In this document: positions 1 to 9,376 of the stretch, piece by piece
How the letters are laid out: each line of letters starts with the position of its first letter
Numbering within the stretch: the first letter of the stretch is position 1
NCBI RefSeq assembly: GCF_900105385.1
Contig: NZ_LT629772.1
Location: 5,456,001 to 5,520,000, forward strand
Direction: 5' to 3'
Length of the DNA stretch: 64,000 nt
DNA from: Microlunatus soli
Lineage (GTDB): Bacteria; Actinomycetota; Actinomycetes; Propionibacteriales; Propionibacteriaceae
Notes under the pieces: generated by a model
Told to the model about the DNA's origin: nothing
Database searches by the model: none
Seen by the model: the letters and a program-made list of their open reading frames with translations, nothing else
Position numbers and translations under genes: made by a program

Positions 1-738
1 GAAGACCGAGGCGTACACGATCGACTCCGCCATCGAGCCGGACTGGTCGATGCAGAGGATGATCCGGCGTTGCACCTGTTGAGTACGGCGGGCATGGCCG
101 ATCAGCCGTTCCGGAACGACCGTGCGGTACTCGGGCAGATAGTGCTGCAGGTTGGCAGCGATCGTCTTGCCCCAATCGATGTCGGCGTGCCGGGGTCGGC
201 GGGTCTTCGCCGCGCGGTTCAGGGCTCCGGAAACCGCCTGCACGGTGGCTGCGGCCAGCCGTCGTTCCAGGTCGTCGGTGACCTGCCGGACGACCCGGCG
301 TGCCGTCGAGCGACTGTGTTCGGGGATCACCCGGTTGAGCCCGATCAGCGTGGAGACCAGGCCGATGTCGGGCTGCACCGCCTCCAGCATCTCCGGCTCG
401 GTCAGCAACCGGTGCAGGCCGAGCCGCTGCATCGCATCGGTCTGCATCACCTGGACCACCGAGCTGGGGAAGTAACCTCGGATGTCACCGAGCCAGCGCG
501 CGACCCGGGGTGCCGAGGCGCCGAGTCCGCCGCGCCGGTTGCCGTCGTAGAGCTCGGACAACGCGCGATCGCGGATCCGGTCGTCGTCGCTGAGCTCGAG
601 GTCGTCGCCGGCGGCGCTGCCGGATTCGATGTCGGTGGTGGTCAGGCCGTCAGCGTCGCCGCCGCCCAGCACCAGCCTCCAGCGGGTCAACCGTTCCCGT
701 TCCGTCGGATCGGCCGCGTGCTGATCGTCGGATGTCAT
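1..738 (-). CDS. VWA domain protein, 3' end outside window
   Basis: The reading frame runs from an ATG at 738 leftwards off the window edge, so 246 N-terminal codons are visible and the C-terminus is missing. The first ~230 residues are charged and helical. The visible part ends in a MIDAS-type motif, LCIDQSGSM, which is the metal-binding D-x-S-x-S signature of von Willebrand factor A domains. Its start codon overlaps the stop of the DUF5682 gene in an ATGA, so it is the last visible gene of the five-gene operon. MoxR ATPases commonly act with a VWA partner (as in RavA-ViaA, NorQ-NorD and CbbQ-CbbO), and the MoxR gene two genes upstream is the likely partner. That pairing is inference from context. 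Substrate unknown. Confidence 0.88.
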   Translation of the reverse strand, partial: MTSDDQHAADPTERERLTRWRLVLGGGDADGLTTTDIESGSAAGDDLELSDDDRIRDRALSELYDGNRRGGLGASAPRVARWLGDIRGYFPSSVVQVMQTDAMQRLGLHRLLTEPEMLEAVQPDIGLVSTLIGLNRVIPEHSRSTARRVVRQVTDDLERRLAAATVQAVSGALNRAAKTRRPRHADIDWGKTIAANLQHYLPEYRTVVPERLIGHARRTQQVQRRIILCIDQSGSMAESIVYASVF

Positions 739-2936
739 GCCACCTCCAGGCCGAGCAGGTCGCCGACCCGCCGGACGACCGGCCAGGCACGTTCGACGTC
801 GATCATGCTCTCCGCGGCGGGGGAGTCGGAGGTCCGGTCCCGTCGCGACAGGTGATGGCCGAGTTGGCGTCGTTCGGCGGGTTCGAAACGGGCAAAGGTC
901 CGGCGGAGCAACGGCACCAGGTCGTCGAAGCTCGCCTCGTCGATGTCGGCCACCCAGTCGTCGATCATGGTCAGTAGTTGTTGATCATGGAGCAACAGCA
1001 GTGCATCGCCGTCCAGGAAGCCTTCCAGCCAGGCCGCGCCCGCGGCCGCCGGAACGGCGCGGGACAGTCGCCGGCTGAGCCGCAGGGCGCACTCCTCGGC
1101 GGACACCGCACCCGAATCGGTCAGGATCCGGTTCAGCCGTCCTCCGATCAGCCCGTGTACCCGGTCGTCGGCCGCCACCAGCTCCAGCGCCGGTTGCCAT
1201 GCCTGATCACCGATCCCGCTCAACGCGACACCACGGTGCGCGGCGTCGATCGCCTCCCGCAAGGTTGCTGCGGCGTCGTCGTCAACCGACCCGCAGGCGG
1301 CGCGCAGGCCGATCGCCGCTCGGGTCACGACCGACTCCAGGACGCCGCCGACCAGGCTGGTGTCGGCCTGTCGGACGTCGCCGTAGCGGTGCACCCGGGC
1401 CAACGGTTCGATCGCTCCGAGCAGGGTCAGCGTGTCGTGCTGCTGGGCGGTCTGCTCGGCCAGCGCCGACGTGACCGCGGTCAGGGCCCGTGGCAGCTCG
1501 GCCAGCAACGCCTCCTCGATCAACGTCGCGAGGATGGCCAGGTCGGCGGATCGGGCGCGTTCGGCGACGCGATTCTCCGTTGCGTCCAGCACTGTCGTCC
1601 CGTACAGCCCCGCCTCGACCAGGCCGACGGCGAATTCGGGTGTCCACTCCAGACGCCAGGCCTCCTTGAACGTGCCGGTACTGCCGCCGGCGTCGATCTG
1701 TCGGCCCCAGTCGATGCCCAACAGTCGCAACCGGTGCAGCAGCAGCGATCGGTCGCGTTGGCTGTCCTTGCGGAGGTCGAGCATGATGTCGGTCGGCGTC
1801 GCCGACGGCTTCATCCGGAGCCGTCGCTGGAGCCGGGTCAGGTCCTGGGCCAGAGGGACCAGCGGTGCCGAGTCGGGCACCCGGCCGAGCTCTTCGCCGA
1901 CGACCAGCGTCCGGTCGATCAGTTGGAGCGGGATCGCGGAGCCGCCACACAGCACCGCCTGGCTGGCGTGGGTCAGTTCCGCGAGACCGACCGACGGTCG
2001 GCCACGGATGGCGGCCAGCGCATCGGCCAGCCGGACGGCGTCGACGACGGTGGCCGGAGCCGCGTCGAGTCCTTGATCACGCAGCGTCCGGGCCACCCGG
2101 GTGAGCCAGCTCGGGACCACCTCCTCGGCACGTCCGGATTCCCAACAGCTGAAGAGATGGGCATACCAGCCGGGTGCGGTGATGCCGGCGCCGTATCCGC
2201 TGGAGGTCGCCAGTCGGCCGGCCGTCCAGGGTGCCCAGGTTGCCGTGACCTTGGTCCGCGGCAGCTTGGTCAGCAGCCGGTTGTCCGAGGTCGCTGTGGG
2301 GAAACTGTCCGGCACCAGGACGGGAGCATGATAGGCGCCGCAGACGACCACCACGGATTCGCGGCCGGCACGTAGCTCGGCGCGGATGATCTTGCGCATC
2401 GCGGCTTCCCGGCGCAACGTCTCCGGATCCGGGGACTGCTCGGCGTCCTGCTCCCGAATCACCGCCATCGCCTCGCCGATCAGCGAGAACCGTTGCAGGG
2501 TTGAGGATGCGCGGTGCTCGACCGCGTCCTCCCACCAGCGTTCCGGGTCGTCGTATCCCGCCGCGGCGGCCAACCGTCCGATCGGATCCGAGCCAGGGTG
2601 TTGCCGACGGTCGGTCATGGCCAGGAAGTTGGTCGCCGGCAGATCGGCGAACCGTACGTCGGCGCTGTTGCCGATCGCCCAGCGCAGCGCGACCCATTCG
2701 GGGCTGAAGGACGCAAACGGATAGAACGACGCCCGGTGCGGTTCGTCGGTGACGTAGATCAGCGCCGCGACCGGCGGCACCAGATCGGGATCGGCGGCCA
2801 GCGACAGCAGGCCGTCCAGCTCCGGTGGTCCTTCGATGATCACCAGGTCCGGTCGCAACTCGTCCAACGCCTGCAGCACCGAACGCGCCGACCCGGGACC
2901 GTGGTGCCTGATCCCCAGTACCTCGACCGTCGCCAT
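735..2936 (-). CDS. DUF5682 family protein
   Basis: This 733-residue protein carries the family's N-terminal signature GIRHHGPGSARS (residues ~7-18), followed by a strand ending in VIIEGPPE (~32-39). The His and Glu residues in these motifs recall the EreA/ChaN-like hydrolase superfamily, to which I tentatively relate it; no activity has been shown from sequence. The rest is mostly helical with no signal peptide or membrane segment, so it is probably cytosolic. It starts 6 bp after the MoxR ATPase stop and overlaps the VWA start in ATGA, which implies translational coupling. It is likely a core component or client-processing part of the MoxR/VWA system. Family assignment is good; function is unknown. 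Confidence 0.87.
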   Translation of the reverse strand: MATVEVLGIRHHGPGSARSVLQALDELRPDLVIIEGPPELDGLLSLAADPDLVPPVAALIYVTDEPHRASFYPFASFSPEWVALRWAIGNSADVRFADLPATNFLAMTDRRQHPGSDPIGRLAAAAGYDDPERWWEDAVEHRASSTLQRFSLIGEAMAVIREQDAEQSPDPETLRREAAMRKIIRAELRAGRESVVVVCGAYHAPVLVPDSFPTATSDNRLLTKLPRTKVTATWAPWTAGRLATSSGYGAGITAPGWYAHLFSCWESGRAEEVVPSWLTRVARTLRDQGLDAAPATVVDAVRLADALAAIRGRPSVGLAELTHASQAVLCGGSAIPLQLIDRTLVVGEELGRVPDSAPLVPLAQDLTRLQRRLRMKPSATPTDIMLDLRKDSQRDRSLLLHRLRLLGIDWGRQIDAGGSTGTFKEAWRLEWTPEFAVGLVEAGLYGTTVLDATENRVAERARSADLAILATLIEEALLAELPRALTAVTSALAEQTAQQHDTLTLLGAIEPLARVHRYGDVRQADTSLVGGVLESVVTRAAIGLRAACGSVDDDAAATLREAIDAAHRGVALSGIGDQAWQPALELVAADDRVHGLIGGRLNRILTDSGAVSAEECALRLSRRLSRAVPAAAGAAWLEGFLDGDALLLLHDQQLLTMIDDWVADIDEASFDDLVPLLRRTFARFEPAERRQLGHHLSRRDRTSDSPAAESMIDVERAWPVVRRVGDLLGLEVA

Positions 2937-2942
2937 CGATGA

Positions 2943-4040
2943 TCAGCTCAGTTCGCGGCAGGCACGGTACAGGTCGGCCCAGTCGTCACGGTCCTTGACC
3001 ACGGTGTCCAGATACTCCTGCCAGACGATCCTGTCCTGCACCGGATCCTTGATCACGGCGCCGATCAGGCCGGCGGCCACGTCGACCGCGCGGATCCTCC
3101 CGTCGCCGAAATGGGCTGCCAGGGCGACACCGTTGGTCATCACCGAGATCGCCTCGGCGGTGGACAGGGTGGCGGTCGGCGACTTGACGGTGGTCCGTCG
3201 ATCCAGGGTGTGGCCGTCCCGCAGCTCGCGGAAGATCGTCACCACCCGCTCGATCTGCGCGGCGTCGTCCAGTTCGGCCGGGAGCTGCAGCGAGTGTCCG
3301 ATCGAGACCACGCGCTGGCGGACGATCTGCACCTCCGACTCCAGCGTGTCGGGCAACGGCAGCACCACGGTGTTGAATCGCCGCTTCAGCGCCGAGGAGA
3401 GATCGTTGACGCCCTTGTCCCGGCTGTTGGCGGTGGCGATCACGTTGAAGCCCTGCAGAGCCTGGACCTCATCGTCCAGTTCCGGGATCGGCAGCGTCTT
3501 CTCCGACAGGATGGAGATCAGCGCATCCTGCACGTCGGCCGGGATCCGGGTCAGCTCCTCGACCCGGGCCAGAGCTCCGGTCTGCATCGCTCGCATCACC
3601 GGGCTGGGCACCATGGCGTCCCGGCTCGGCCCCTCGGCAAGCAGTCGGGCGTAGTTCCAGCCGTAGCGCAGGGACTCCTCCGGAGTGCCGGCGGTGCCCT
3701 GGACCAGCAGGGTGGAGTCGCCGCTGATCGCGGCGGCGAGATGTTCACTGACCCAGGTCTTGGCCGTACCCGGGACGCCGAGCAGCAGCAGGGCGCGGTC
3801 GGTGGCCAGCGAGGCGACCGCGATCTCGATCAGCCGCCGGTCGCCGACGTACTTGGCGCTGATCACGGTGCCGTCGGGGAGTTCGGCGCCGAGCAGATAG
3901 CTGGTCACCGCCCAGGGCGAAAGCTGCCAGCGCGGTGGCCGCGGTCGGTCGTCGGTGGCTGCGAGCGCGCTCAGTTCGGCGGCGTAGGCGTCCTCGGCGT
4001 GTGCTCGCAGCAGTTCGGGTCCGGTGCCGGCCTCGGTCAT
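2943..4040 (-). CDS. MoxR-type AAA+ ATPase
   Basis: This is a 365-residue AAA+ ATPase. Walker A is GVPGTAKT (residues ~88-95). The Walker B position reads LARVEEL (~159-164), so the usual Asp-Glu is Glu-Glu. Sensor 1 lies in ATANSRD (~203-209) and the arginine-finger region in SALKRRFN (~217-224). I chose the ATG at 4040 because it overlaps the DUF5691 stop in ATGA; the open frame extends further upstream but only as antisense of that gene. MoxR ATPases remodel or load cofactors into partner proteins together with VWA proteins. Here the VWA gene is two genes downstream. The cofactor or target is not evident. Confidence 0.9.
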   Translation of the reverse strand: MTEAGTGPELLRAHAEDAYAAELSALAATDDRPRPPRWQLSPWAVTSYLLGAELPDGTVISAKYVGDRRLIEIAVASLATDRALLLLGVPGTAKTWVSEHLAAAISGDSTLLVQGTAGTPEESLRYGWNYARLLAEGPSRDAMVPSPVMRAMQTGALARVEELTRIPADVQDALISILSEKTLPIPELDDEVQALQGFNVIATANSRDKGVNDLSSALKRRFNTVVLPLPDTLESEVQIVRQRVVSIGHSLQLPAELDDAAQIERVVTIFRELRDGHTLDRRTTVKSPTATLSTAEAISVMTNGVALAAHFGDGRIRAVDVAAGLIGAVIKDPVQDRIVWQEYLDTVVKDRDDWADLYRACRELS

Positions 4041-5515
4041 CTCAACGCCTCCGTGATCTCGGTGGTCAGGGTCAGGTACTGGGTCAGTCGGCCGGCTGCC
4101 TCGCGGGCCGCGAAGTCGCCGGCCCCGGTGGCCAGTTCGGTCAGCCGGCCCAGGGCGGCGGGGTGCAGGCCGTGAGCCATCGGATCGAGCAGCTCCGACA
4201 GCCGACCCTTCAACCGGGTCACGGTGTCGATCGCCGCTCGGCTGAAGTCCGGGCCCCATGGTGCCGGCGCGGATTCGATCATGGTCCGGACCTTCGCCCC
4301 TGTCGTCAGCCGGGCAACCGCAGCGGCCGCCAACGGGTCCCACTCCTTCAGCGGCAACAGTCGATACAGCTCGGGAATGTCGGCCTGTGGCGCGATCGCC
4401 CGCGCCCATCGACGATCGTTCCGGGCCAGCACGGCGGCAACGATGCCGTGCCGGGCGTCGTCGTCGGTGATCATCGCCCAGCTGTGGGCCGGGTCGCGGC
4501 CTGTCACGGTGGTCCACACGGTGAGCGGGGCGCCGGCCGCGAGTCGTTCCAGCCAGTAGCCGCGTTCGGAACGCCGGGTCGGGGGTCGGCCGAGCCCGTC
4601 CCGGACGCCGACATCGGTCGGAGTGGTCGGCAGATCGATGATCAACCTCTGATCGGACGCCCCGGGCTCGGCCAGCAGCGGGGTCAACCGCTCGGCCATC
4701 CGCTGTGCCCGTGCCGATCCGGGAAGTCCGTCCAACAGTCGTGCGGCGGTCGCTCGGACCAGCATCGACCGGTCGTCAAGTCCCTGCTCCAGAAGGGATT
4801 CGTCGTCCGGTCCGAGATTGATCCTCAGGCAGTTCAGCAGCGTCGCCCGATCCTGGGCGCCGTCGGTCGGCAGGGTGCAGGCGATCAGGTCCCGGACGGC
4901 GGCCGGGTCCCGCTCTCGCAGTCGACGGACGGCCTGGACCCGCTCCGCTGTGCTCTGCCGGGCCCACTGCTGCGGGTCGATCGGGGCGTCCGGATCCTGC
5001 AACAACCAGCCCCACTCGGGTTGCAGTCCGCCGAGCCAGCGGCCGCGAGCGTCGGCGGTGATCTTGACCAGTGGCTGCAGTGCGGTGTCCCGCCGGGCGA
5101 GCTCGATCACGGTCGGCAGCCAGCGATGCGGGATCCGATGATCGGATGCCGCCGCGGCGGTCAACCAGTGCTGCAGCAGTCGCCGTTGCAGTCGTGGGCC
5201 GGCAGGGGACTGGCTGATGATCAACTCCAGCAGCTGACGGGCCCGTGGGTTCGGTTCGGTCCGCCGGTCGGGGTCGGCCGGCGTCGTACGGTCGCCGGGC
5301 CCGTCGACCGTGCCGGCCTCGGGATGTCGGCCGGCCCGGGTCAGTGCGGCACCGAGCGCGGCGGCGTCCAGCAGGGCGATCTCCGGTGTCGCGGCGGGGC
5401 GGGACGGCATTCCGGGCGGGACCGGCGGCAATGGTCTGCGTCCGGTGCCGAACAGTGCGGCGGTGCTGACCTCGGCCCACCAGGAGCGGACGGCTTCGTC
5501 GGTCGGTCGGGTCAT
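4037..5515 (-). CDS. DUF5691 family protein
   Basis: The 492-residue product starts at the ATG at 5515 (MTRPTDEAVRSWW), which overlaps the stop of the SWIM gene in ATGA. The protein is rich in leucine, arginine and aspartate. It shows regularly spaced helical segments with HEAT-like character in the second half (for example around ATAARLLDGLPGS), no membrane segment and no recognisable catalytic motif. DUF5691 proteins are recurrently found beside SWIM and MoxR genes in actinobacteria and other soil bacteria. A scaffold or adaptor role in the ATPase complex is inference. Family name is reasonably sure; function is unknown. Confidence 0.83.
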   Translation of the reverse strand: MTRPTDEAVRSWWAEVSTAALFGTGRRPLPPVPPGMPSRPAATPEIALLDAAALGAALTRAGRHPEAGTVDGPGDRTTPADPDRRTEPNPRARQLLELIISQSPAGPRLQRRLLQHWLTAAAASDHRIPHRWLPTVIELARRDTALQPLVKITADARGRWLGGLQPEWGWLLQDPDAPIDPQQWARQSTAERVQAVRRLRERDPAAVRDLIACTLPTDGAQDRATLLNCLRINLGPDDESLLEQGLDDRSMLVRATAARLLDGLPGSARAQRMAERLTPLLAEPGASDQRLIIDLPTTPTDVGVRDGLGRPPTRRSERGYWLERLAAGAPLTVWTTVTGRDPAHSWAMITDDDARHGIVAAVLARNDRRWARAIAPQADIPELYRLLPLKEWDPLAAAAVARLTTGAKVRTMIESAPAPWGPDFSRAAIDTVTRLKGRLSELLDPMAHGLHPAALGRLTELATGAGDFAAREAAGRLTQYLTLTTEITEALR

Positions 5516-6861
5516 AGCGGGACCGGGCCCTCCTCGGTCTCGACGCAGAGCGGCCGGAACCGTTCGCGTTCGAGTTCGCCGAAGATCGTCACCGGCAGTC
5601 CGCCGGTCAGCGCCAGCAATGTCGGGGAGCCGTCGGTCAGGTCGATCCGCGCACCGTCGGCGTCGGTCAGTCGACCGGCGGTCTGCTCGTCGCGCCGTCG
5701 GCCGGTCTGCCGGAGCCCGACGGCCCCGTGCAGCAGGACGGGTGCTCGATCGGCCCACGGGTTGTGCTGCCAGATGGCGTTCAGCGCGGCCAGACCGCCG
5801 TCGATCGTGAGCCCCGGCCCGGCCCCGATCGGTCGCAGCGGCGCGGTCCGGTTCAGTGCTTCGGGCTCCTCGGCGAACAATGCCCGGCGCGGCGAGTGTC
5901 CGGGATAGCGGGCGAGTTCGGCGGACAGCACCGAGCCGGCCAGCCGGGCGATCGGGAGTGGCCGGCCCTGGGCTCCGAAGTCGAGGATCTGGACGATCTC
6001 ACCGGACCGTTCACCGCGCAGCCAGGTGCGCTGCTGGGAGATGGCACCCTCGTCCTCGCTCCGATAGGCACCGAGCACCACCCAGTCGTCGGTGATCGCA
6101 TCGCCGGCGCGGACGTCGTCGGTGCTGACATGCCAGCCCAGCACCACGCGCAGGTCGGCCCGGGTCGGCTCATCGAGCTCGTCGAAACGACGCCAGGCAC
6201 GCACGGCCAGCCACCATCGACCGATCTCGAGGAACAGCCGGCTCGCTGCCTCGCCGCGTTCGGACTCCACACTCATCCGACGGACCCGTTCGGCCAGTCC
6301 CGGCAGTTGGGCGTCGACCAGCCGGGCCGCCGTCCGGTCCCACCAGTCGAGGGGTTGCCGGCCCGCCTCGGCCAACCCGCCGCGTACGAGATCGGTCAGC
6401 CAGCGGGCGAAATCCTCGATCCCGGCGCTCATCAGGGCCCGCCGATCGGCGATCCGCCTGGCCCGCGCGGCCGCGTCGACCGGCTTCTTGGCCCGGGCCT
6501 CCCGGTCGGCGTCGTCGGCGGCCCGCTGCGCCTTGGCACGAGCCCACTCGGGCACTCCATCACCGGCGCTCGGGGCGGCGGTGTCGTCGTCATCCTCCGA
6601 TGCCGAGAATCGCAGCATCAACGCCAGAGCGTGCTTGCAGGGAAACTTCCGACTCGGACAGGAGCACCGATAGGTCGGGCCGGTGCTGTCGATGCTGACT
6701 TGGTAGGGCGTCGCGCCCGATCCTTGACACTTGCCCCAGACCAGGGTTGCCGTGCTGCCGACATCGGACCACGGCCCCGGCCCGGCCAGCCTGCGGGCAG
6801 CCGTCAAGGACGCGGCATCCGGGGCGGCCTTCTGCACCGCCCGCAGCGTCCAGCTCGGCAT
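5512..6861 (-). CDS. SWIM zinc-finger protein
   Basis: First gene of the five-gene operon, 449 residues from the ATG at 6861; a GTG at 6882 would add seven residues and neither start has a clear ribosome-binding site. A SWIM zinc finger is complete near the N-terminus: CSCPSRKFPCKH gives C-x-C-x6-C-x-H at residues 66-77. SWIM fingers bind nucleic acid or protein partners. The rest is acidic-to-basic helical sequence with no known catalytic motif. Its stop overlaps the DUF5691 start. The serine-hydrolase gene ends only 35 bp upstream on the same strand, so it may be co-transcribed. A likely role is target recognition for the downstream MoxR/VWA machine, which is inference. Confidence 0.87.
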   Translation of the reverse strand: MPSWTLRAVQKAAPDAASLTAARRLAGPGPWSDVGSTATLVWGKCQGSGATPYQVSIDSTGPTYRCSCPSRKFPCKHALALMLRFSASEDDDDTAAPSAGDGVPEWARAKAQRAADDADREARAKKPVDAAARARRIADRRALMSAGIEDFARWLTDLVRGGLAEAGRQPLDWWDRTAARLVDAQLPGLAERVRRMSVESERGEAASRLFLEIGRWWLAVRAWRRFDELDEPTRADLRVVLGWHVSTDDVRAGDAITDDWVVLGAYRSEDEGAISQQRTWLRGERSGEIVQILDFGAQGRPLPIARLAGSVLSAELARYPGHSPRRALFAEEPEALNRTAPLRPIGAGPGLTIDGGLAALNAIWQHNPWADRAPVLLHGAVGLRQTGRRRDEQTAGRLTDADGARIDLTDGSPTLLALTGGLPVTIFGELERERFRPLCVETEEGPVPL

Positions 6862-6896: not shown

Positions 6897-8093
6897 TCAG
6901 TCCCGGCAGGCGGCGAACACGTGATCGGCGACTGCGGCCAGGTGAGCCATGTCGGTCGCGGTGTAGCTGCGGAGATTGGTCAGGTAGGCAAACGCGAGAT
7001 CGCGATCGGTGTCGGCCCAGGCCACACAGCAGTTGCTGCCGTTGTGGCCGAAGGTGTTGCGGCTGCTGCGATAGCCGAACGGCGGCACCCGGCCGGGGCC
7101 GCGCAGGCCACCGAGTTGGAAGCCCAGCGACCAGGGCACCGGTGCGCGGCAGAAGCCGTCGATCTCGCCGTTGCTGCTGGGGGTTCGGGCACGGCGGATC
7201 GCCTCGGGGCTGATCAGCTGCCGGTCCCCGACCAGGCCACCATCCAGCAGCATCTGATAGAACCGGGCGACGTCGTAGCCGGTCGCCGAGATGCCGGCGC
7301 TGGGCATCACCGCCTGCCGGGTGGCCGGTCGGTTGATGCCACCGGCGGCGATCCGTCCGCCGAGATGCCGGAATTCGACCGGCACCTGCCGGGGCGCCAG
7401 GTCGGGGCCGATCCCGAGATGGGTGTCGGCCACCTGCAACGGTTCGATCAGCTGATCGAACAACACGTCGGCGAACGGCCGCCCGGTGATCCGCTGCACG
7501 ACCTCACCGAGGATGAAGCCGAAGATCAGGAACTGGTAGGCCGGTTCGGTGCCCGGTTGCCGTCGGGGCCGGAATCCCTCGATGATCCGCACCGCACGCT
7601 GCCAATCGGTGCAGGCCAGCACGTCCCGGAGCGCGCCGCCGGCGGTGGCGAACCCGGTGCGGTGTTGCAGCACGTGCCGGATCGTGATGCCGTCCTTGCC
7701 GTGCTGGCCGAACTCGGGCCAGTAGGTCGCCACCGGATCGTCCAGATCGAACAGACCGCGCTCGGCCAACTGGTGGATCAGGACCGTGGTGTAGGGCTTG
7801 CTGGCCGAAAAGATCCAGAACAGCCCGTCCGGTTCACAGTTGATCGCCTGGTTGCTGACCACCCGGCCGTGCCGGATCACGCAGAGCTGGACGGCCGCGC
7901 CGCGCCGGCTCGCCAAGGACGTCGCCCGTTGCAACGCTGCGGCATCCATTCCGACCTCGGCCGGCTCGGCCTCGGGGAGCGCGATCGGCTGCCGCCGATG
8001 CTGCTGCCGGGGCGCGACGGCGGCGTCGTTCGATCCGGTGCGTAGCGCGAGGTGCCGCGGATCGAGCAGCGTCGGAAGTCTGAGCAGGTTCAT
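6897..8093 (-). CDS. Serine hydrolase, beta-lactamase/esterase fold
   Basis: The 398-residue product belongs to the class C beta-lactamase-like hydrolases (EstB/penicillin-binding type). The nucleophile motif S-x-x-K is SASK (residues 96-99, in IFSASKPY), and the late H-x-G motif is present as FGHNGSN. The Y-x-N motif appears as YQF in AYQFLIFG, so the Asn is replaced by Phe, which may alter specificity. No signal peptide is seen, suggesting a cytosolic esterase or peptidase rather than a secreted lactamase. An alternative start at 8138 or 8153 would add 15-20 residues. It lies downstream of the LacI regulator on the same strand. Substrate unknown. Confidence 0.86.
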   Translation of the reverse strand: MNLLRLPTLLDPRHLALRTGSNDAAVAPRQQHRRQPIALPEAEPAEVGMDAAALQRATSLASRRGAAVQLCVIRHGRVVSNQAINCEPDGLFWIFSASKPYTTVLIHQLAERGLFDLDDPVATYWPEFGQHGKDGITIRHVLQHRTGFATAGGALRDVLACTDWQRAVRIIEGFRPRRQPGTEPAYQFLIFGFILGEVVQRITGRPFADVLFDQLIEPLQVADTHLGIGPDLAPRQVPVEFRHLGGRIAAGGINRPATRQAVMPSAGISATGYDVARFYQMLLDGGLVGDRQLISPEAIRRARTPSSNGEIDGFCRAPVPWSLGFQLGGLRGPGRVPPFGYRSSRNTFGHNGSNCCVAWADTDRDLAFAYLTNLRSYTATDMAHLAAVADHVFAACRD

Positions 8094-8198
8094 TGCGGGT
8101 GCGGTTCCGGGATTCGGCGGACAATAAACGCCCATCATGACATTGCCGGACAAGTCACGCAGGTGAACGCGCGGAGAACGCCCGCGAATCCGAAGGTG

Positions 8199-9245
8199 TC
8201 AGGGGTGCCGTGCTGGTGCGGCAGTGCTGGCGCGAAGGACCAGGGTGGTGGCCAGTTCTTCGCGGGGCAAGCGCCGGTCGGCGTCGCGTTGCCGCAGCAG
8301 TAGTCGGAGGGCTGCCGCGCCCATCTCGGCGATCGGCTGCCGTACGGTGCTCAGCCCGGCCCACTTCGCCTCCGGGACGTCGTCGAAGCCGACCACACTG
8401 AGGTCGTCCGGGATCGCGATGCCGCGGTCCGCGGCGACCTGCAGAACGCCCAGGGCGAGGGTGTCGGCACCGGCGAAGACGGCGGTCGGCCGGTCCGCCG
8501 AATCGAGTAGCCGGGCCGCCGCCTGGACGGCGTTCAGCCGGCCGTCGACGTAGAGCGTCGAGATCTCGGACTCCTCGCCGGCCAGCTCACCGACGGCGGA
8601 GCAGAAGCCGTCGACCCGGGCCCGGCTGTAGAGCAGATCCTTGCTCCAGGCGAGGACGCCGAATCGGCGATGTCCCAAGCCCAGCAGGTGTTCAGCGACG
8701 TCGCGACCGGCCGGCCAGTTGGTCGCGCCGACCGACGCGATGCCTTCCGGTGGCCGATCGACCGGATCCAGCAACACCACCGGAATGCCGGCGGCGGTCA
8801 GCATCGCCAGCTGCTGGGTCGAGGCGTCGACCAGCGCGAGTACGGCGCCGGCCGACGAACGCGCCAGCAGCCGCGTCACCCAGTCCTCCCGATTGCCGTC
8901 GCTCTGGCCGCCGGCAACGGTGACGACCAGTTCCAGGCCGGCTGCAGCGGCGGCGCTCTCCACCCCGATCAGCACCTGGTTGGCCCAGCCGCCGGCGACC
9001 CCGCTGATCACCAGGTCGATCAGTCGTCGGTCACCGGCCGGGCGGGCCGACGCCGGCCGCGCAGCTGTCGAGCCGCGTCGCCGATATCCGGTTTCGGCGA
9101 CCAGATCCATGATCCGGCGCCGGGTGCCTTCGGACACATCGGAGCGACCGTTCAGCACCTTCGACACCGTCGGAATCGTCGTGCCTGCCCGGGCAGCGAT
9201 GTCGGCCAATGTCGGTTGCCGGGGACTGCTGATCACGGAATTCAT
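8199..9245 (-). CDS. LacI-family transcriptional regulator
   Basis: This 348-residue regulator starts at the ATG at 9245. An N-terminal LacI helix-turn-helix is clear (TLADIAARAGTTIPTVSKVLNGR, written here only as its residues ~11-33), followed by a periplasmic-binding-protein-like sensor domain ending around residue 345. It is divergent from the ThuA and Gfo/Idh/MocA genes. A TTGCGCAA palindrome lies 20 bp before its start, with a second one before thuA, so autoregulation plus control of the sugar-oxidation genes is likely. The ligand is presumably a sugar or cyclitol, which is inference from the neighbours. Confidence 0.92.
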   Translation of the reverse strand: MNSVISSPRQPTLADIAARAGTTIPTVSKVLNGRSDVSEGTRRRIMDLVAETGYRRRGSTAARPASARPAGDRRLIDLVISGVAGGWANQVLIGVESAAAAAGLELVVTVAGGQSDGNREDWVTRLLARSSAGAVLALVDASTQQLAMLTAAGIPVVLLDPVDRPPEGIASVGATNWPAGRDVAEHLLGLGHRRFGVLAWSKDLLYSRARVDGFCSAVGELAGEESEISTLYVDGRLNAVQAAARLLDSADRPTAVFAGADTLALGVLQVAADRGIAIPDDLSVVGFDDVPEAKWAGLSTVRQPIAEMGAAALRLLLRQRDADRRLPREELATTLVLRASTAAPARHP

Positions 9246-9264
9246 CCTCACGGCAGGGGCAGAT

Positions 9265-9272
9265 TTGCGCAA
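9265..9272. promoter_or_regulatory. Putative LacI operator O1 (TTGCGCAA)
   Basis: A perfect 8-bp palindrome TTGCGCAA lies 20 bp upstream of the LacI start, flanked as TTTGCGCAAC, the same ten bases as the second copy. LacI-family operators are typically short palindromes with a central CG, so this is a good candidate for autoregulation. Confidence 0.6.
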
Positions 9273-9376
9273 CATGCCCGGAGGAGGGTCGAGGGGCGAG
9301 ATCTCGGCCTCGCGTCGATTGACAGTGGATCAGGCGAGTGGAACGCTGCTTGCTACGCACCCACGCAGTGCGGGGT

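Follow-up and report, generated by a model that had tools for sequence, protein, structure and literature searches.

The gene set described here lies on the minus strand of a 64,000-nucleotide stretch of the Microlunatus soli genome (contig NZ_LT629772.1, positions 5,456,001 to 5,520,000; hereafter the window), and comprises five genes encoding, in order of transcription, a SWIM zinc-finger protein, a DUF5691 protein, a MoxR AAA+ ATPase, a DUF5682 protein and a VWA protein. Judged by sequence similarity, this set is related to yehLMPQ, an uncharacterised operon of E. coli, a link absent from the preliminary description of this DNA. Our preferred reading, which we hold tentatively, is that the five products form a single YehL-type complex, in which an ATP-driven motor would serve a recognition-gated hydrolase resembling an esterase or protease. 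The reading is supported by the retention of gene order in related loci, by correlated evolutionary distances, by shared reading frames, and by the preservation of the ATPase motifs and the metal ion-dependent adhesion site (MIDAS).

Relationship to the E. coli yeh operon and conservation of the gene set

In E. coli K-12, yehL is annotated as MoxR, yehM as uncharacterised, yehP as VWA and yehQ as SWIM. The window MoxR showed 40% identity to YehL over 363 aa (E = 4.6e-77), DUF5682 26% identity to YehM (E = 4e-33), and VWA 35% identity to YehP (E = 1e-72). Both operons contain MoxR–DUF5682–VWA homologs in matching order together with a SWIM protein. They differ in the flanking members, with DUF5691 and the SWIM–OB protein upstream in the window, but DUF4132 (YehI) upstream and YehQ downstream in E. 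coli. Sequence comparison detected no homology between the window SWIM protein and YehQ. The subfamilies of MoxR were reportedly defined in a 2006 review by Snider and Houry, which may also cover the gene neighbourhoods of YehL. YehL appears as a named MoxR subfamily in passages of two papers (PMC3893208; PMC11432383). RavA–ViaA is likewise an E. coli pair of MoxR and VWA proteins, but the window MoxR matched RavA with only 22% identity over 178 aa (E = 0.018), and ViaA was matched at E = 3e-4. In direct comparison with these two E. coli MoxR proteins, the window MoxR is thus closer to YehL and is assigned to the YehL subfamily.

A profile search of contigs with a DUF5682 alignment gave at least 585 relatives, of which the best 80 loci were kept; these are the closest relatives, so the sample leans towards the window's type. 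Open reading frames (ORFs) in the related loci were called mechanically. In 62 of these 80 loci all five genes were found with identical order and strand, an arrangement beyond chance. By record title, the 62 loci belong to Actinomycetota, Cyanobacteriota, Planctomycetota, Chloroflexota, Bacteroidota, Pseudomonadota and Verrucomicrobiota; in two of them (L089 and L103), an additional fragment match was obtained for one or two genes. Among the other 18 loci, the SWIM–DUF5691 pair points away from MoxR–DUF5682–VWA in five, a sixth (L139) is arranged likewise with DUF5691 not detected, and two Lentzea loci had the VWA gene inverted and on the other side. Eight more were without one or more genes, seven of these being on contigs shorter than 8 kb and the eighth, L102 (Bryobacterales), being on a long contig in which the SWIM gene was not detected. 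Two cyanobacterial loci (L075 and L078) contained DUF5682 alone, with the other four genes not detected nearby, and are perhaps solitary hydrolases; L075 starts near a contig end. The variations across the 80 loci are block-wise, and the genes are not randomly shuffled in relatives. Another twelve loci, taken from the genus, family and order of the window, included nine that were complete and in order, one without a detectable DUF5691, and two of the sister type (type B below), which has DUF4132 and a YehQ-like protein in place of DUF5691 and the SWIM protein.

A midpoint-rooted tree of 97 MoxR sequences separated three types, A (88 leaves, including the window), B (6) and C (3). Type B has the order DUF4132–MoxR–DUF5682–VWA–YehQ-like SWIM, and was found in E. 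coli, L058, L059, L233 and L234, and in L056 with a weak YehQ match. In L055 and L057, which fall in the type-B MoxR clade, YehQ was not detected and the DUF4132 match lay 6-7 kb away. Two Bacteroidota loci of type A (L104 and L126) have a DUF4132 gene after the usual five, and both match YehI. Type C is a divergent VWA–MoxR–DUF5682-like set present in three loci (L060-L062); a TerD protein adjoins it in L060, the sole type-C locus with scanned neighbours.

Some members of the set are physically joined. Of the 61 same-strand SWIM–DUF5691 pairs counted, 6 lie in a common reading frame, as do the pairs in L047, where the SWIM match is partial, and L048. DUF5682 and VWA share one in L055 and L057, the latter with both Pfam domains in a single ORF. 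Across 68 loci, the pairwise distances of the five families correlated (Spearman 0.59-0.81, uncorrected for species history); 200 permutations of the MoxR/DUF5682 comparison reached at most 0.23. Mean identities across 18 genomes (153 pairs) were 72.5% for MoxR, 68.0% for the RecA core, 63% for VWA, 48% for DUF5682, 38% for SWIM (136 pairs) and 28% for DUF5691. Type-A MoxR exceeded the RecA core in 110 of the 153 pairs, and VWA exceeded it in 41. Conservation beyond that of RecA is very high for an uncharacterised protein. When the window's own proteins were compared with those of the actinobacterial loci L064, L085 and L131, RecA identity was higher than MoxR identity. The high identity of MoxR and low identity of DUF5691 and SWIM fit a constant engine with variable recognition parts, and lateral transfer between phyla could contribute to the pattern.

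DUF5682 was present in 25 of 296 Actinomycetota genomes. In the same genomes, each of the 22 DUF5691 matches above the cut-off had DUF5682 no more than about 6 kb away, which was not the case for five weaker DUF5691 matches that fell short of the cut-off. Of 19 DUF4132 matches, 11 were at most 10 kb from DUF5682. In the window's genus, the DUF5682 gene was present in 15 of 20 genomes. The window DUF5682 is 64% identical to that of a Nocardioidaceae metagenome-assembled genome and 65% identical to that of L232 (another family), but 42-44% identical to three genus-mates and 56% to a fourth (L225-L228), which suggests a possible horizontal replacement. Among the yeh genes, yehM alone was searched in E. 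coli. It was matched in 5284 of 5426 complete genomes (97%), and in 5166 of them a single place gave a coverage of 80% or more. The genome-reduced strain DGF-298 is described, in a passage of PMC10652928, as being without the segment from molR' through yehQ, so the gene would be near-core but dispensable in the laboratory. Plasmid matches were rare (36 of 72,556 records), a single match was found among 50,697 phage records (a 14-kb faecal 'Bacteriophage sp.' record), and none of 21 pattern matches in viral contigs was confirmed.

Conserved residues and predicted domains of the operon proteins

The window MoxR has intact Walker A, Walker B (residues 159-163), sensor 1 (202-205) and arginine finger (218-222) motifs. 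In the related loci, sensor 1 was found as A[ST]AN in 76/76 and the arginine finger as L[KR]RRF in 71/76; Walker B was matched in 39/76 with an unrefined pattern. The VWA protein retains, in addition to the MIDAS, a GGTD-like Thr pattern in 73 of the 76 loci. Among solved relatives of the window MoxR, midasin accounted for five of eight distinct sequences (best E = 4e-16), followed by NorQ (E = 3.8e-6). The AAA+ core is likewise common to MadB and GvpN, but the scores against the NCBIfam models of these two (41.9 and 37.9 bits) were far below the cut-offs of 475 and 266.8 bits. According to section 8 of PMC7159879, the VWA MIDAS in MoxR–VWA pairs is held to capture a peptide, after which ATP restructures the complex.

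The AlphaFold2 model of DUF5682 (predicted local distance difference test, pLDDT, 89.6) suggests an N-terminal domain of the TIKI/Ere/ChaN kind followed by HEAT-like repeats, a prediction that is new here. H11, E35, R176 and H203 were invariant in the A1 (14 sequences) and A2 (48 sequences) groups and across 10 sequences drawn from the three types, so that even the divergent type-C loci retain His–Glu–Arg–His. This residue order is shared with the TIKI/erythromycin-esterase/ChaN/HopBA1 superfamily, to whose fold the predicted one shows a moderate similarity, and R176 is the putative active-site Arg by its place in the order. DUF5682 differs from the superfamily in its large HEAT-like C-terminus, in its MoxR–VWA partners, and in having no evident second Glu to complete the 2His/2Glu set of active TIKI enzymes. 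Position -3 from H11 is Gly8 in type A, giving GxxH, whereas PMC7979712 gives E47xxH50 for EreC; E80 and E177 are other Glu residues that could serve. TraB homologs were found in none of 40 genomes of the window's class, and among 15 genomes of the other loci, TraB was present in 8 and ChaN-type proteins in 8.

The SWIM protein was modelled with similar confidence (pLDDT 89.4), and its C-terminal end is predicted to form a tandem OB fold, also new here; the protein may bind nucleic acid. DUF5691 is probably HEAT-like in part, since positions 194-269 of its profile matched alphaRep/HEAT proteins, though weakly (E = 8.6e-4 at best).

Operon layout and neighbouring genes

The coordinates of the five genes and their domains are given in Table 1. 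The Pfam scores of all five proteins exceed the family cut-offs. Only the VWA gene is truncated by the window edge, with 531 bp lying beyond the window start; its VWA_CoxE score is that of the full gene in the assembly (L002:9470-10738, 422 aa). The assembly consists of one contig of 6.73 Mb, in which DUF5682 was matched once.

Table 1. Positions in the window of the operon genes and of the motifs and predicted domains in their products
Feature	Position	Strand	Details
SWIM zinc-finger protein, first gene	5512..6861	-	449 aa; Pfam SWIM 29.8 bits
SWIM finger CSCPSRKFPCKH, residues 66-77	6631..6666	-	in SWIM protein
Tandem OB fold (predicted), SWIM protein residues 249-445	5527..6117	-	
DUF5691 protein	4037..5515	-	492 aa; Pfam DUF5691 369.7 bits, E 5e-110
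MoxR AAA+ ATPase, YehL type	2943..4040	-	365 aa; AAA_5 129.5 bits, E 1.1e-37
Walker A GVPGTAKT, MoxR residues 88-95	3756..3779	-	pattern in 76/76 loci
DUF5682 protein, YehM type	735..2936	-	733 aa; Pfam DUF5682 775.3 bits, E 8.3e-233
TIKI/Ere/ChaN-like alpha/beta domain (predicted), DUF5682 residues 1-245	2202..2936	-	H11, E35, D98, R176, H203
C-terminal helical-repeat (HEAT-like, predicted) half of DUF5682, residues ~455-700	837..1574	-	
VWA (CoxE-like) protein, YehP type	1..738	-	VWA_CoxE 159.7 bits, E 9.5e-47
MIDAS DQSGS, VWA residues 231-235	34..48	-	DxSGS in 76/76 loci

The coordinates confirm the single-strand arrangement given in the preliminary description, with three ATGA overlaps (5512-5515, 4037-4040 and 735-738) and one gap, of 6 bp, between MoxR and DUF5682 (2937-2942). 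The fixed stoichiometry deduced there from the overlaps does not follow from them, and the overlaps differ among loci. A 4-bp overlap was present in 16/55, 46/69, 23/76 and 24/66 same-strand junctions of the related loci, in gene order, counts that take the in-frame start closest to the upstream stop and may include too many 4-bp overlaps.

A gene for a beta-lactamase-family serine hydrolase (6897-8153, minus strand) precedes the SWIM gene, from which its end is 35 bp away, and may be co-transcribed with the operon in this genome. The gene preceding it, at 8199-9275, we take to be LacI-like. Just outside the window, the ORF after VWA (L002 8293-9540, minus strand) contains two MerR-type helix-turn-helix stretches, a doubling that is unusual.

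The surroundings of 15 type-A loci were examined through 86 flanking ORFs, scanned from 147 listed in 20 loci, with long ORFs among the 61 left out. Pfam matched 97 families, 25 of which were listed, with DUF4132 in 2 of the 86 ORFs. A linked client enzyme was considered and rejected, as neither clustering of flanking ORFs nor Pfam on these 86 gave a common partner. RtcB and RTC (RNA repair) domains occurred in one ORF each, and at least one ORF matched reverse-transcriptase models.

Proposed role and alternative explanations

We hypothesize that the MoxR ring would hydrolyse ATP and, through VWA, whose intact MIDAS could capture a peptide, remodel a multi-protein assembly. DUF5682 would be the working part, a TIKI/Ere-type hydrolase domain on a HEAT-like scaffold, in which, by analogy with EreC, water would be activated by H11/H203 with E35, and charge stabilised by R176. 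The recognition module would be the SWIM–tandem-OB protein, which the HEAT-like DUF5691 would hold and whose target would probably be RNA or single-stranded DNA, or else a protein bound there. ATP-driven remodelling would then switch the hydrolase on, or bring the substrate to it, where the recognition module is engaged. We favour this model because the third conserved member, beside MoxR and VWA, is predicted to be a hydrolase and retains its residues even where identity falls to about 26%, and because the variable members resemble recognition modules. The fold matches also count in its favour, although they reach only a moderate level on the scale of the tool used and were made with predicted monomers. 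Neither HMMER comparison of DUF5682 with the PDB nor hhalign comparison gave anything significant, so the TIKI/Ere case rests on residue order and predicted fold.

A different possibility, which we consider unlikely but the strongest of the alternatives, is a maturation or assembly chaperone of the CoxD/CoxE, NorQ/NorD or midasin kind. MoxR–VWA would then mature, assemble or load a cofactor into one unlinked client, with DUF5682, DUF5691 and SWIM as co-chaperone or scaffold parts. The VWA_CoxE domain, the ranking of midasin and then NorQ among solved relatives, the near-universal yehM of E. coli and the slowly evolving motor fit such a role, and section 8 of PMC7159879 assigns maturation or assembly to most MoxR systems of known role. 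A linked client enzyme would be expected of a system of the CoxDE/NorQD type, but no enzyme gene recurs beside the five. Of the 80 loci, several of which are on short contigs, at most 6 contained any one of the top flanking families; eight of the top ten had a Streptomyces/Streptantibioticus representative and look like synteny, and the other two were mixed in side and strand. A chaperone would also leave a fully conserved hydrolase-like site idle, and the DGF-298 deletion, as given in PMC10652928, would make any client of that type dispensable in the laboratory. A role in conflict or phage defence, with DUF5682 as the effector of a system akin to the MoxR-vWA ternary systems described in PMC7159879, is improbable. 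Such systems likewise combine MoxR and vWA with further components, and a weak bpMoxR match in the window, the patchy presence in Actinomycetota, the TerD protein beside type-C L060 and the variability of SWIM and DUF5691 would suit one. However, the bpMoxR match (23.8 bits) is under the 27-bit cut-off, and Pfam found no VMAP, beta-propeller or effector domains in the five window proteins. PADLOC at E 0.01 matched none of DUF5682, DUF5691 and VWA, and its best matches to SWIM (6.6e-5, PDC-S62) and MoxR (0.002) were weak. Among the flanking ORFs, 40 PADLOC families passed 1e-10, a figure for which no background set was scanned, and the 25 listed matched one ORF each, except mad2 with two. A defence island was thus set aside as the lead explanation, the flank matches being scattered and without recurrence. 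The prevalence of yehM in E. coli, together with the lack of a recurring defence partner, disfavours a mobile phage-defence role, as does the near absence from phage records and viral contigs.

Least probable as a separate explanation is a genome or RNA stress response, in which the complex would process damaged nucleic-acid–protein assemblies and type B would be tied to DNA damage via DUF4132/WGR (MolR); this explanation overlaps our favoured model. Passages of PMC8533742 report strong upregulation of the operon of the DUF4132 gene drA0166 on DdrO depletion in D. radiodurans, and place MolR in the LexA regulon. The predicted OB and SWIM domains are consistent with it, as are a LexA-like one-mismatch site directly upstream of yehF (L042 1450-1465) and a one-mismatch GAACN4GTTC at window 6915-6926, 54 bp ahead of the SWIM start. 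Such sites, however, occurred near chance levels, with 10 LexA-like sites found against 7.9 expected, and 11 GAACN4GTTC sites against 6.4 (14 of 200 shuffles reached 11). The full E. coli LexA consensus was absent from the yeh region. Some 30 kb of sequence preceding the type-A SWIM genes contained no exact match to any of four SOS-box patterns, a weak test with 0.04-0.6 expected. SOS control of type A was rejected on the grounds of no exact box upstream and one-mismatch sites near chance.

The preliminary description was therefore borne out in part. Its MoxR and VWA pair is upheld, and so is its EreA/ChaN-like hint for DUF5682, by residue order and moderate fold matches. Its term 'uncharacterised' agrees with an empty literature search by the names DUF5682 and DUF5691; a search on SWIM zinc finger, MoxR and operon also found nothing, most subscription journals being outside both searches. 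The co-occurrence with phage-defence islands that it proposed to test is disfavoured, no flanking family being present in more than 6 of the 80 loci.

More broadly, the set might represent a class of hydrolase not described before, powered by ATP and gated by nucleic acid, in which a MoxR–VWA ring would switch TIKI/Ere-fold DUF5682/YehM on targets chosen by interchangeable recognition modules, an idea that we regard as rather doubtful. These modules would be SWIM–tandem-OB with DUF5691, DUF4132 with YehQ, or another set near TerD. The putative enzyme subunit is present in nearly all complete E. coli genomes and the set in several phyla, with no function assigned in the literature searched. The predicted YehM/DUF5682 site, the predicted tandem OB fold and the putatively swappable modules make the 'yeh' mystery directly testable in a laboratory strain.
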